Shown here: piece by piece, positions 4,687 to 37,140 of the stretch
How positions within the stretch are numbered: position 1 is the stretch's first letter
Layout of the letters: each line of letters opens with the position of its first letter
IMG/VR virus record: IMGVR_UViG_3300042914_003037
Coordinates: 1 to 53,014 of that record
Length of the DNA stretch: 53,014 nt
Origin: a virus
Strand: one strand, 5' to 3'
Program-made: the position numbers and the translations under genes
Notes under the pieces: generated by a model
What the model saw: only the letters and a program-made list of their open reading frames with translations
Told to the model about the DNA's origin: nothing
The model's database searches: none

Positions 4687-5544
4687 TTAAACGATGATTG
4701 TTTTGGCAAAGTAAGGTTCTTCTTCTTGAAGGCCTCTTTCGAAGCCAACATACCCGCGAGGGTTGCAAACCACTCTGCAATCACCAATTTTATAGTCAAA
4801 ATCGGTATGAACATGACCGTGCATCCACAATTTGATTTGTGGGCGATCCAAAATGAATTCACTGAGATCGCTATGATATGCACCATTCATGATTCGATCA
4901 TGTCTATATTGCTCGTGAATGCTCATGCTCGACGGAGCCATGTGACTAACAACGACCACGGTTGAATCAATCTGCTGATCAATTACTTGCTTGAAATATT
5001 CAAGAGTTTGACGATGTCGTCCAAGAGTGTGAGCCGGACGAAGTTTTACATAACCCAACCCATCATGTCTGATAGTGTTGTAATCGTTAGACGCATTAGT
5101 AACCCCGTGAAAAGTCAGTGGATCGCCACGATTCAAATCAGTCCAAAGAGTTCCGCCCACAAAAGTGATATCTTCGATAGTTAGCGTATCTTGCTCCAAG
5201 AAATGAACATTCGGATAAACCGAGCATTCGTTTCTCATAATGTCGATGGTTTGATTCCACTTGCCGTGATAAAACTCGTGATTTCCGGCCACGATCACGA
5301 CCTGTGGGAATTGAAAACTGACTCGATCAAGAAAGTTGCGATAGGATTGAGCCTTTCGCTGACGACTTCCAAGAGTTTTCAGTAGTTCGGCAGCATAGGG
5401 AACGTGAGGCTTTGGGTGATCATGAAGATCAGCCGAAATCATGATGTCTCCAGCCAGCACCAAAATATCGCAGTCGTCATGATTTTGCAGATTGATATCT
5501 GCAAATTCCAGATGAAGATCGGATGCTAATGCAATTTTGGTCAT
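4687..5544 (-). CDS. calcineurin-like metallophosphoesterase
   Basis: 285 aa with the full set of metallophosphoesterase motifs: SDLHLEF, LAGDIM, GNHEFYHG, SHMAPS and MHGHVH. Binds two metal ions in known families. The substrate could be nucleotides, nucleic-acid ends or phosphoproteins and cannot be told from sequence. Close to the SWIM-domain gene downstream. Confidence 0.88.
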   Translation of the reverse strand: MTKIALASDLHLEFADINLQNHDDCDILVLAGDIMISADLHDHPKPHVPYAAELLKTLGSRQRKAQSYRNFLDRVSFQFPQVVIVAGNHEFYHGKWNQTIDIMRNECSVYPNVHFLEQDTLTIEDITFVGGTLWTDLNRGDPLTFHGVTNASNDYNTIRHDGLGYVKLRPAHTLGRHRQTLEYFKQVIDQQIDSTVVVVSHMAPSSMSIHEQYRHDRIMNGAYHSDLSEFILDRPQIKLWMHGHVHTDFDYKIGDCRVVCNPRGYVGFERGLQEEEPYFAKTIIV

Positions 5545-24360: not shown

Positions 24361-25386
24361 CTAAATCTTTCCATAAATCGATGTAGTGTATTTACTACTT
24401 AAAACAACATCACCGTTCAAATCTTCTTGTCTTACCCATCCAGACAAATGATTCATGTGATCGGTGGCCCAAGTTTCCAAAACCGCCATAACTCCAGCAG
24501 CAGTGCTACGCTGAATTGCAGTCGCGTTTTCATTGCATGATATTTTCTGAACATATTGTCTTACGCTACTTGTTGATTGTCCAACATTTTGACCAGTCAC
24601 ATTTATGTAAATGTAAACAACATCGTCAGTGGTAGTTGGAATACAATCATTGAACAATTTTACATAAGTGTCAAAATTCTCAGCAAGACCAAGATCATCA
24701 CGCAAGAATTTAATGTTATCCCAATGTCCTGGATATCTAAGCGTTTTGTAATTTACATTGTGTGCTCTTAATTGCCAAGATTCTGGAAGACTGCCAATTC
24801 CACCGCTGGTATTTGCTGCTTCTAACTCAACGCCGTGTATTTCTACTTTTTCCAGACCATCCAGCGGATCAAGATTGACCAACACGCCATTGACCAAAGC
24901 AGGGCAAGGATTGATATATTCGTTTATCAGGCCCTCTGTATTCCAGGTTCTGTAATACTTTAATGAATTATTTGAGTGTGTAGGCAAAGCACCAACTCGT
25001 ATTTGAATCGAGTTTACTCGATCAAACTTGTTGGCCAAACTGTTAGCGATAATGCTAACCATTCCTGGAGCCAGTCCACACTGAGTGACAAACTTTGCAT
25101 TAGTCAGTGTTTTTACATAATCAGTTACCGTTACGCTTTCGGTTAAATCAAAATAATCAACGCCCGACTGATTACACAATTCTGCAATTTGCACATTCAA
25201 ATAAAACGGCGTGCTGCACAAAACTCCATCTACCGTTGAGATAATATCTCGGAGTGTTTTTGAATCACTCAGATCATGACCCAAAGATAAATCATATCCA
25301 CTAACCGCAAAATTAAAATCAGATGACAAGGTGTCATAAACATATTTTCCAATATGTCCCATTCCTAATATAGCAAGTTTCTTCAT
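24361..25386 (-). CDS. saccharopine-dehydrogenase-like protein
   Basis: 341 aa. N-terminal Rossmann motif LAILGMGHIGKYV; FDLTESVTVTDYV, QCGLAPGMVSIIANSLA, GGIGSLPESW and TLRYPGHWDNI match the saccharopine dehydrogenase/carboxynorspermidine synthase superfamily, which makes or splits secondary amines using NAD(P). A metabolic gene is unusual here; possible roles are lysine or polyamine metabolism. Immediately follows a parvulin gene. Confidence 0.8.
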   Translation of the reverse strand: MKKLAILGMGHIGKYVYDTLSSDFNFAVSGYDLSLGHDLSDSKTLRDIISTVDGVLCSTPFYLNVQIAELCNQSGVDYFDLTESVTVTDYVKTLTNAKFVTQCGLAPGMVSIIANSLANKFDRVNSIQIRVGALPTHSNNSLKYYRTWNTEGLINEYINPCPALVNGVLVNLDPLDGLEKVEIHGVELEAANTSGGIGSLPESWQLRAHNVNYKTLRYPGHWDNIKFLRDDLGLAENFDTYVKLFNDCIPTTTDDVVYIYINVTGQNVGQSTSSVRQYVQKISCNENATAIQRSTAAGVMAVLETWATDHMNHLSGWVRQEDLNGDVVLSSKYTTSIYGKI

Positions 25387-25387
25387 A

Positions 25388-25693
25388 TTAGCTGGTCCTA
25401 ACAATCAAATGCCAGCCAAATTGTGTTTGAACTGGAGCACTAAGTTGTCCTACACTTAGCCCAAAAGCAGTGTCTTCAAATGGCTTGACCATCATCCCGC
25501 GACCAAATAGTCCAAGATTTCCGCCATTTTGTCCGCTGGGACATTTACTATGCTGTTTGGCAAGTTCTACAAACTTATCCATAGTAGCGGACTGTGATAA
25601 CTCGTTTTGTAGTTGCTGTGCTAACTCAGCACTCTCAACTAAAATATGACAAGCACTCACTTGCTCAACGCTGTTTTGCTCACTATTGCTCAT
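25388..25693 (-). CDS. parvulin-type peptidyl-prolyl isomerase
   Basis: 101 aa: SACHILVESAELAQQLQNEL, CPSGQNGGNLGLFGRGMMVKPFE and VQTQFGWHLIVRTS are classic PpiC motifs. Minimal cytosolic form (no signal peptide). Start MSNSEQNSVEQ has AAAGGAAAAAC upstream. Its promoter carries a palindrome. Confidence 0.9.
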   Translation of the reverse strand: MSNSEQNSVEQVSACHILVESAELAQQLQNELSQSATMDKFVELAKQHSKCPSGQNGGNLGLFGRGMMVKPFEDTAFGLSVGQLSAPVQTQFGWHLIVRTS

Positions 25694-26175: not shown

Positions 26176-26384
26176 AATGTCGTTGCTACCACTACCACAT
26201 GGCCCACCGACCGAGTTGCTTACCCTGTCACGACGATATTTTATATGGAAGGGTATCGTGTCCTCCTAAGGTATTTTCAAGACGCCCATGTTAAGACGGG
26301 CCTTGCGGTAAAATCCCTACGCACCGCGTGGTTATGGTAACCACAATACCCACTTTTGTAAAGCCAAAGTGTAAGACTGGTTAC
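26176..26384 (-). ncRNA. structured non-coding stretch
   Basis: No reading frame. Minus-strand hairpins GTGGTTA-CCA-TAACCAC, GCCC-N10-GGGC and CACTTT/AAAGTG. Lies between two tRNA-Gly genes; probably a transcribed RNA of unknown role. Confidence 0.35.
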
Positions 26385-26459
26385 TGGAGCGGGTGACAGG
26401 GATCGAACCTGCGACGAACAGCTTGGAAGGCTGACACTCTACCACTGAGTTACACCCGC
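26385..26459 (-). tRNA. tRNA-Gly(TCC)
   Basis: GCGGGTG acceptor identical to tRNA-Gly(GCC), loop CTTCCAA, T73, CCA encoded. Confidence 0.93.
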
Positions 26460-26469
26460 GTTGTCTAAC

Positions 26470-26524
26470 AGAATGCCTTTTTGTCAAATTACAATTTTGA
26501 TTTTATGTTTGCTGTAAGCATTCT
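26470..26524 (-). ncRNA. minimal CAGCAA-stem RNA 1
   Basis: AGAATGC/GCATTCT stem, TTACAGCAAAC inside, one hairpin TCAAA-ATTGTAA-TTTGA, A-rich AAAAAG on the 3' side. Sister copies at 29151 and 36983. Confidence 0.55.
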
Positions 26525-26530
26525 AAATTT

Positions 26531-26605
26531 TGGTTGCGGGCCCTGGAGTCGCACCAGGTATCTACAGGTTATGAGCCTGTCGGGTTACTGTCTCCCTCGC
26601 CCGCA
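26531..26605 (-). tRNA. tRNA-Met(CAT) with altered elbow
   Basis: TGCGGGC/GCCCGCA acceptor, A73, CCA; anticodon ACAGG-CTCATAA-CCTGT. D-loop AGACAGTAA lacks GG and T-loop is TGCGACT (G55 instead of U55). Acceptor resembles initiator tRNA but with a U1-A72 pair. Confidence 0.85.
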
Positions 26606-26612
26606 ATATAAC

Positions 26613-26801
26613 TTATTTATACTTGTTTAACCACGGAACTTCTTGCCAATACCCTTCAGTATAATACTCAAGATTTCCCTGATTGTTTATTCTGTAATCT
26701 CCATGTTTATCTGTTTCACTATGTTCATAGTGTATCATCGTATTGCTATGATTGTCAATCAATTGTTTATCCATTTGTTTATCCAATTTTTCATCTTTCA
26801 T
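26613..26801 (-). CDS. hypothetical protein (62 aa)
   Basis: MKDEKLDKQMDKQLIDNHSN ... WQEVPWLNKYK. Polar, His/Asn-rich. An AATAAATAT late-type box sits about 5 nt before ATG; no Shine-Dalgarno. Function unknown. Confidence 0.5.
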   Translation of the reverse strand: MKDEKLDKQMDKQLIDNHSNTMIHYEHSETDKHGDYRINNQGNLEYYTEGYWQEVPWLNKYK

Positions 26802-27084: not shown

Positions 27085-27102
27085 ACAGAAAATTATTATA
27101 AC

Positions 27103-27219
27103 AGGTTCTCTTTTTAAGTGCTACCACTACACCAATACTGCCGACCAAACAGTATCTGGGATTCGAACCCAGCCCTTCTTTTTTTCTGAAAGTTTAAAAT
27201 TATTTGCTGAAAAGAACCT
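27103..27219 (-). ncRNA. Y-RNA-like RNA with permuted tRNA module
   Basis: Terminal stem AGGTTCT/AGAACCT, TTTCAGCAAATA inside, hairpin CTTT-CAGAAAA-AAAG, T-arm CTGGG-TTCGAAT-CCCAG, acceptor strand ATACTGT, 7-nt loop TTGGTCG, acceptor strand GCAGTAT, TG, D-arm GTG-TAGTGGTAG-CAC, then TTAAAAAG. 3' half precedes 5' half: a circularly permuted tRNA fold, same loop length as the RNA at 15183. Confidence 0.75.
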
Positions 27220-27230
27220 AATGGTCTATT

Positions 27231-27707
27231 TTAATCGAATCTAAGCGATGTCGTTTGCTTTGGGGCAACGCCATCGTAGCGTTTTGTTATTTCTTCGCCT
27301 CGTTCTATGAATTTAATGGCTCTTAAACCAACTATTCTGTGAACTGTATCAATCACTTGTTCGCTATTTGGAGTGTCACTATGATTTACAAGTAAAAATG
27401 GACTAACAAAAACTCCATTTTTAAATCTGTCAGTTGATCTAAACTTAGGAATATCAGAATCGGGAAGTTTATACTCTATGTTTCCAACTGGTAAAACCTT
27501 TTCATTGTTTTTCCATTTTAGACCCATGCGTTTTACAAAAATTGTATCTTTAATCTTATTCCAATCGCTCTCGCTAATTGCAACTACTGGTCCCAAATGT
27601 ATTAGTGTTCCAGCAGGAATATCTCCCGCCGCAAACAACCCGTTTCCAGCATTTGGAATTTTTGATTTGGATACTACAGTAGACGAATATATTTCGTTGA
27701 TACGCAT
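27231..27707 (-). CDS. SET-domain protein
   Basis: 158 aa: NAGNGLFAAGDIPAGTLIHLG, LVNHSDTPNSEQV and IERGEEITKRYDG are SET signatures (SAM-dependent lysine methyltransferase fold). Substrate unknown. ATG follows a CATAAATA late box by 4 nt, with no Shine-Dalgarno. Confidence 0.85.
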   Translation of the reverse strand: MRINEIYSSTVVSKSKIPNAGNGLFAAGDIPAGTLIHLGPVVAISESDWNKIKDTIFVKRMGLKWKNNEKVLPVGNIEYKLPDSDIPKFRSTDRFKNGVFVSPFLLVNHSDTPNSEQVIDTVHRIVGLRAIKFIERGEEITKRYDGVAPKQTTSLRFD

Positions 27708-29106: not shown

Positions 29107-29150
29107 AAAAATTCTGAACGGGTTTGCACCGTAATCAAAATGTTTTAAAC

Positions 29151-29204
29151 AGAATGCTTTTTTTCACCAATTGAAAGTTGTGTAAGATTTGCTGTAAGCA
29201 TTCT
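29151..29204 (-). ncRNA. minimal CAGCAA-stem RNA 2
   Basis: AGAATGC/GCATTCT stem, TTACAGCAAAT, hairpin CAA-CTTTCAA-TTG, A-rich 3' side. Confidence 0.55.
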
Positions 29205-29210
29205 AAAATT

Positions 29211-35605: not shown

Positions 35606-35874
35606 TGGCTCCCTGTCGTGGGATCGAACCACGGACCAACAGATTCTGGTTTGTGTGACTTTCGCCACTCCCTGGACTTTATCTTGACCATAGCATTTCT
35701 GCCTTAGGCCCCTGCCGTCAAGTCTCTACACGTTCCCATTTCTGGGCTTCGCTCGGTATTGCCATATGCTTTCGCACTTAGATTTCACCGAATTTGACAG
35801 GATTTTCAACTACTGTTTCCAGTAGAAGTGTCAATTTCTAACAGTCTGCTGCTCTACCGCTGAGCTAACAGGGA
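35606..35874 (-). tRNA. tRNA-Asn(GTT) with group I intron
   Basis: Exons give TCCCTGT/ACAGGGA, G73, CCA, D-arm GCTCAGCGGTAGAGC, anticodon GCAGA-CTGTTAA-TCTGT. Intron 35646-35839 (194 nt) interrupts after U36. Confidence 0.85.
35646..35839 (-). other. group I intron in tRNA-Asn
   Basis: P1: exon TGTT with GACA in the intron (U-G at the splice site). P2 hairpin CTACTG-GAAA-CAGTAG. Core strings AATTCGGTGAAA (P), AATACCGAGCGAAGCC (Q), GTGTAGAGACTTGACGG (R), AAGATAAAGTCC (S); intron ends in G. Resembles the small tRNA introns of bacteria (IC3-like). No internal ORF. Confidence 0.85.
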
Positions 35875-36974: not shown

Positions 36975-36982
36975 AATATAAC

Positions 36983-37042
36983 AGAATGCTTTTTTACGAG
37001 TCAAATTAGTAGTTTGATGTATAAGTTTGCTGTAAGCATTCT
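36983..37042 (-). ncRNA. minimal CAGCAA-stem RNA 3
   Basis: AGAATGC/GCATTCT, TTACAGCAAAC, hairpin TCAAA-CTACTAA-TTTGA, AAAAAA on the 3' side. Confidence 0.55.
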
Positions 37043-37049
37043 AAAACTT

Positions 37050-37140
37050 TGGCGGAAGAGGGCGGAGTTGAACCCCCAAGGGCTTTCTAGGCCTCGACGC
37101 ATTTCAAGTGCGCTACCGTCGCCAGTCGGTTTGCTCTTCC
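37050..37140 (-). tRNA. tRNA-Ser(TGA)
   Basis: GGAAGAG/CTCTTCC, G73, CCA, loop CTTGAAA, long variable arm. First gene of the cluster in transcription order. Confidence 0.92.

Follow-up and report, generated by a model that had tools for sequence, protein, structure and literature searches.

The minus strand of the window, by which we mean the whole 53,014-nucleotide (53-kb) viral record that was analysed, carries two elements, E1 and E2 (Table 1), which are very probably YrlA-like phage Y RNAs, linked to a protein of the Ro60 type. The evidence lies in the two-dimensional structure of the elements, its covariation among relatives, the genetic coupling of such RNAs to the protein and the Ro60 fold modelled for that protein. 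This reading accounts for elements that many phage records leave without annotation or label wrongly ("tRNA-pseudo", "tRNA-OTHER", intron tRNAs), those of laboratory phages of E. coli and M. smegmatis among them, and it provides a sequence tag, CAGCAA...GUU, for finding such RNAs. It also ties the Pfam families DUF2828/DUF7788 to the Ro60 fold and opens phage Ro RNPs to functional tests.

Table 1. Coordinates of the RNA elements, their parts and the Ro60-type gene in the window
Feature	Position	Strand	Description
Ro60-type protein, 461 aa	13636-15021	-	PF25043 DUF7788, PF11443 DUF2828, phrog_850
Handle RNA between E2 and Ro gene	15037-15130	-	no clear tRNA parts; R1 20.4 bits
E2	15179-15297	-	second permuted tRNA mimic, Y RNA-like; R1 82.2 bits, E 6e-16
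E2 D-arm	15203-15218	-	
E2 acceptor hairpin	15221-15241	-	TGTTATT / loop CCTAGTG / AGTAATA, then TA
E2 T-arm	15242-15258	-	GTTGG-TTCAAAT-CCAAC
Handle RNA	15553-15657	-	stem GGGATA/TATCCC then GUU; R1 25.0 bits; fold z -2.57
Mini handle RNA	26467-26525	-	head can form anticodon stem-loop TCAAA-attgtaa-TTTGA (UGU); R1 30.4 bits
E1	27100-27220	-	Y RNA-like, tRNA-mimic head on CAGCAA handle; R1 78.0 bits, E 5e-15
E1 handle 3' strand	27100-27110	-	end CCUGUU; sequence and R1 model
E1 D-arm	27118-27132	-	GTGT-AGTGGTA-GCAC; read from sequence
E1 acceptor hairpin	27135-27155	-	7 bp closed by 7 nt: ATACTGT 27149-27155 / loop TTGGTCG 27142-27148 / GCAGTAT 27135-27141
E1 T-arm	27156-27172	-	CTGGG-TTCGAAT-CCCAG; read from sequence
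E1 anticodon-arm-like hairpin	27178-27192	-	CTTT-CAGAAAA-AAAG; 4 bp/7 nt; A in place of U33
E1 CAGCAA motif	27204-27209	-	invariant in 39-sequence alignment; also part of search pattern
E1 handle 5' strand	27210-27220	-	TAGGTTCTTTT; pairs with 27100-27110
Mini handle RNA	29148-29205	-	no canonical anticodon arm; R1 30.4 bits
Mini handle RNA	36980-37043	-	head can form anticodon stem-loop TCAAA-ctactaa-TTTGA (ACU); R1 30.8 bits

Architecture of the two elements

The order of parts is identical in E1 and E2: a 17-nt T-arm is followed by a 7+7+7 acceptor hairpin, two nucleotides (TG in E1) and a D-arm. The sequence-only reading had described this module at both loci, with the same spacing, the 3' half first and the acceptor closed by a loop, and all of this is found in E1 and E2. 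It had overlooked the closing handle and the anticodon-arm-like hairpin of E1, and the true spans of the elements extend beyond the module. The handle is formed by TAGGTTCT.../AGAACCTGTT in E1 and by TTGTATAC.../GTATACAGTT in E2, each with CAGCAA, and consists of an 8-bp stem, 3 nt and the invariant CAGCAA, placed at a fixed 11-nt register relative to the 5' strand, with G-U-U after the 3' strand. Both elements thus present the end-to-end stem of Y RNAs and a tRNA-like head made up of T-arm, D-arm and closed acceptor. At the site of the anticodon-arm-like hairpin of E1, two relatives (L068 and L192) have TCTTT-ctgaaaa-AAAGA.

Modules with seven of seven acceptor pairs occur exactly twice in the real window, as E1 and E2, and twice in total in 200 mononucleotide-shuffled windows. 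Taken alone, E1 folds better than its shuffles (z -2.46) and E2 no better (z -0.10). Immediately upstream of E1 lies a gene for a SET-domain protein, at 27231-27707 (-).

Relatives and covariation

A blastn search with E1 gave an unannotated homologue in Synechococcus phage BUCT-ZZ01 (73.6% identity), and E2 led to relatives in Eneladusvirus/GAP32 jumbo phages, whose elements have UUCG or AUCG as the acceptor loop. Pattern scans of IMG/VR with a structural filter yielded over 100 distinct elements, the copy numbers from these scans being lower bounds, and 145 elements were gathered over all loci; conservation reaches distant phages and Treponema. Among 39 relatives, all seven acceptor pairs and six of the seven handle pairs have changed on both sides, and 97% (acceptor) and 90.5% (handle) of the cells are paired, against 30-45% of all cells in a sliding control, counts of covariation that are inflated because acceptor and handle pairing served as search criteria. 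A covariance model, R1, built from these 39 relatives with the window left out, recovered E2 and E1 as its two best matches in the window, the next best scoring 33.8 bits.

The 7-nt length of the acceptor loop has no diagnostic value: across the 145 relatives the loop measures 3 to 15 nt, most often 4 to 6, with 3-4 nt in 40 and an N-CCA start in 15. The best Rfam family for E2 and its relatives is YrlA (RF02553), at 26.7-34 bits. Since E2 itself scores 26.7 bits (E 0.0018), far under the gathering cut-off of 69, the E1/E2 family is a divergent branch; E2 lies outside RF02553 as modelled, yet is the same kind of RNA.

The handle is also found with other heads. In Treponema it bears a T-arm by itself, a tRNA-like head in unpermuted order or a loop unlike tRNA. 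In a second class of relatives (GAP32, BF, Treponema and E2) it takes the place of the anticodon loop, and the remaining anticodon stem is often mismatched (C-A, A-C or A-A) at pair 29-41 or 28-42. Other tRNA-like RNAs are linear and non-permuted: their acceptor is open, and their anticodon arm holds the CAGCAA handle hairpin as an insertion (L007 1506-1625, 1893-2015, 2134-2246 and 2257-2377; L013 3374; L144, L171, L115 and others); in L007 they are annotated as tRNA-OTHER, tRNA-Phe or tRNA-Asn. By their look, they are one and the same RNA in its alternative circular permutation. Among the stable RNAs of phage T4 (rnaC and rnaD, L474 909-1172), rnaC has the T-arm-like hairpin CCGGG-TTCGAAT-CCCGG; a CAGCAA handle was not detected, and T4 has neither a DUF7788 nor a TROVE match.

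The Ro60-type protein

The Ro-type gene of the window begins 158 nt downstream of E2 and lies 12 kb from E1. The AlphaFold model of its product (pLDDT 92.3) matches the Ro60 fold along the entire chain, with a Z of 21.7 over 404 of 461 residues (Xenopus Ro 1yvp, VIA), followed by the Ro60 of Thermus phage phiLo (Z 16.6) and D. radiodurans Rsr (Z 12.0; both VIA), and unrelated vWA domains stop near a Z of 10. The MIDAS motif DxSxS...T...D is present, with D268, S270, S272, T340 and D372 invariant. Judged by its model, which has the helical ring plus the vWA fold, the window protein is of the Ro60 type. At the sequence level, the Pfam TROVE family PF05731 has no match in the window, the protein falling in PF11443/PF25043, and a profile of the protein gave only weak matches to the PDB, in the vWA part. 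In the collection, 682 phage records have this protein; some of them already name the phage homologue a "Ro-like RNA binding protein" or call it "Ro sixty-related". A literature search for DUF2828 linked to RNA found no paper.

A gene for a PF04308 RNaseH-like protein, at 15907-16392 (-), adjoins the Ro-type gene of the window just beyond the Y RNAs. Such a gene is also directly beside the Ro-type gene of Vibrio phage KVP40 (168283-169719, neighbour KVP40.0299), and it may be a conserved partner.

Coupling of handle RNAs to Ro genes

The association was examined in both directions. In a reciprocal test, 80 viral loci were fetched by protein alone: a strict handle was present on the coding strand in 72 of them and on the other strand in none. 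In all, 134 strict handles lie on the coding strand, and neither the opposite strand nor shuffled sequences gave any. A slightly looser rule found handles in 75 of the 80 loci (162 on the coding strand versus 1 on the other). The strict handles concentrate just upstream of the Ro gene, within 500 nt. In all 36 cases in which element and protein occur in one locus, the two closest to each other lie on one strand. Among bacterial genomes, the protein accompanies 7 of 10 element loci versus 4 of 109 others (P = 6e-7). The Treponema copies stand directly upstream of a DUF2828/DUF7788 gene.

PF25043 was detected in 40 of the 49 records tested. Three records without PF25043 have a canonical TROVE match in its place (G004, G007 and phage CcrColossus). 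They comprise two of the 49, the records of L066 and L079, and CcrColossus, whose TROVE gene is 0.4 kb from the RNAs. Element-bearing records with neither match, L156, L164 and L204 among them, may be fragments; a PF11443 search of the negative records matched nowhere and was uninformative.

Isolates that have a Ro gene together with R1 matches of 47-99 bits are BUCT-ZZ01, BF, GAP32, KVP40, E. coli phage nataliec (element at 27253-27377, about 125 nt), M. smegmatis phage Faith1, Enterococcus phage UTI-EfS3 and others. Over all tested isolates with Ro genes, the R1 matches are mostly of 39-99 bits; they are weak in Ochrobactrum phage OC (26 bits) and Listeria phage cka16 (32 bits). The tRNA-rich phages without Ro, namely T4, S-PM2, DU_PP_I and JSF10, gave no R1 match at E 1e-5. 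In mycobacteriophage Faith1 (L466), which offers a tractable test system, three handle RNAs at 4991-5250 stand directly downstream of the Ro-like gene, and the middle one is a permuted tRNA mimic. For Listeria phage CKA15, Y RNAs have been proposed near the Ro-like gene CKA15_055 (PMC12282133), whose product (L472) was detected in purified virions with 20 peptides and 57% coverage (PMC12282133); the Ro-like RNP or the protein may thus be carried in the particle. We find three handles at 25,288-25,553 of this genome, which do not overlap the one highly transcribed region given with coordinates in that study (26,236-26,727; PMC12282133).

Further handle RNAs and anticodon stem-loop heads

The window encodes five further handle RNAs (Table 1). 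Two of the minis, at 26467 and 36980, lie within the tRNA array; the AU-rich anticodon hairpin that their heads can form is absent from the predicted MFE structure in both. The same array contains a group I intron at 35653-35851 (-; 59.8 bits), just downstream of tRNA-Thr. At 37054-37140 (-) the window has a borderline tRNA-Sec-like match of 47.3 bits (cut-off 47), which ARAGORN did not call.

A canonical anticodon stem-loop is defined here by 5 bp, 7 nt, U33 and a purine at 37. Of the 166 distinct handle RNAs whose heads do not exceed 50 nt, 66 contain one, versus 2.8 expected from shuffles (maximum 9 of 200). Loops of 7 nt number 83 versus 16, other lengths staying near background (at most 28 versus 14), and they show C32 in 67%, U33 in 84%, A37 in 86% and A38 in 80%. 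With duplicates removed, U33 and a purine at 37 are found in 39 of 58 distinct stem-loops, against 18% expected. The anticodons are mainly UUU, UGU, UGA, UGG and UCU, and the RNAs with such heads are about 60 nt long. From their sequences, these sister RNAs in related phages seem to show only the anticodon arm of a tRNA.

Alternative explanations

With the 3' half first, E1 and E2 resemble the circularly permuted pre-tRNA genes of red algae and some archaea: the handle halves would be a split intron, the halves would be joined, and RNase P and Z would cut the acceptor loop to yield a decoding tRNA, a fate that the sequence-only reading had implied. Joined halves restore a 5-bp/7-nt anticodon arm with U33 in 39% of relatives (17% for mismatched halves), the N-CCA starts of some acceptor loops would fit, and there are linear tRNAs whose anticodon arm contains the handle hairpin. 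Many relatives, however, have acceptor loops of 3-4 nt, such as UUCG. Joining yields no canonical anticodon loop in E1 (CAGAAAA, with A33 and not U33), in E2 (CAATCAC) or in E2-type members; the same handle also bears T-arm-only, anticodon-arm-only and non-tRNA heads; and the coupling to Ro proteins is strict. No precise splice-site consensus was found, and 80 filtered elements had no canonical solution. A decoding tRNA as the product is therefore very unlikely. A permuted group I intron and a new small tRNA intron, considered for the restored anticodon arms and the linear tRNAs, were dropped because the handle occurs with non-tRNA heads and beside Ro genes.

A chance junction of neighbouring tRNA halves in a decayed or shuffled array might be suspected, as the phage has about 25 tRNA genes. 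It is contradicted by the scarcity of the module in shuffled windows and by the compensatory changes at all seven acceptor pairs, and it is refuted by the conservation of the module in distant phages and Treponema, which leaves it hardly any credence. The earlier argument against random decay is borne out on a larger scale, since the same module, with compensatory changes, recurs in over 100 contigs of viruses and also in several genomes of bacteria. The handle could also be mainly a cis-regulatory leader through which the Ro gene regulates itself, with no separate RNP RNA, as the concentration of handles in the 500 nt upstream of that gene would suggest; but E1 and the three minis lie 11-22 kb from it, among tRNA genes, and the Faith1 handles are downstream of the gene, so that we judge this highly improbable. 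The Y RNA reading is the one that we retain.

Proposed Ro RNP

As Y RNAs, E1 and E2 would be transcribed, and the ends of the transcript would pair to form the handle (8-bp stem, CAGCAA, GUU), which would probably be gripped by the phage Ro60-type ring protein (ORF 13636-15021). On its loop side, the handle would display the tRNA mimic, with T-arm, closed acceptor and D-arm, to which E1 would add its anticodon-like arm. By analogy with bacterial Ro RNPs, the head could recruit or occupy a tRNA-binding partner, such as PNPase or tRNA-modifying enzymes, and, speculatively, the partners could be tRNA-cutting nucleases.

These Ro RNPs seem to present the elbow of a tRNA (E2), an almost complete tRNA (E1) or just its anticodon arm, and the anticodon-arm heads hint at what some of them might bind. 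A tentative idea, to which we give rather low odds, is that phage Ro60 RNPs form a kit of tRNA-part mimics, including isotype-specific anticodon stem-loop RNAs of about 60 nt (often UUU, UGU or UCU), decoys that would engage those enzymes of the host or of rivals that attack or modify tRNA anticodons. The heads may be read as decoys for anticodon nucleases or, alternatively, as binding tRNA-modifying enzymes.

Comparison with known systems

The permuted pre-tRNAs of algae and archaea share with E1 and E2 the 3' half placed first and a short acceptor-side spacer between the halves; here, in contrast, the closed acceptor hairpin often has 3-4 nt, the RNAs are coupled to Ro, and E1 and E2 have no canonical anticodon loop. 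A literature search for permuted tRNA in phages found nothing. Two-piece permuted tmRNA also has a permuted acceptor, whereas E1 and E2 have a canonical D-arm and the window has no Rfam tmRNA match. With the Ro60/Rsr RNPs (Xenopus Ro 1yvp, D. radiodurans Rsr 2nvo and phiLo Ro60 9l5y), the window protein shares, in its model, the helical ring and the vWA fold with MIDAS; it differs by the absence of a Pfam TROVE match, by its place in the DUF2828/DUF7788 branch and by an identity of 12-17%.

Phage Y RNAs beside Ro60 have already been reported; Chen et al. (2014) are said to have described them close to Ro60 in numerous bacteria as well as phages. The closest known RNA is YrlA, whose end stem is bound by Ro60/Rsr and whose tRNA-like domain consists of T-, D- and acceptor arms; it is reported to be a substrate of DusA and TruB and to tether PNPase (PMC8394870), and phage YrlA has been mentioned (PMC7765460). 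Bacterial and phage Y RNAs and the E1/E2 family have in common the Ro-binding end stem, a head mimicking T-, D- and closed acceptor arms, proximity to a Ro60 gene and presence in phages. Judged against the part of the phage Y RNA literature that we covered, what looks new is a handle family missed by the Rfam YrlA model, tRNA mimics with an anticodon arm (E1) and RNAs of about 60 nt with an anticodon stem-loop only. Compared with YrlA, the E1/E2 family is thus set apart by its CAGCAA...GUU handle and its score far below the Rfam cut-off, and by the anticodon arm that E1 and many relatives add and that sister RNAs bear alone.
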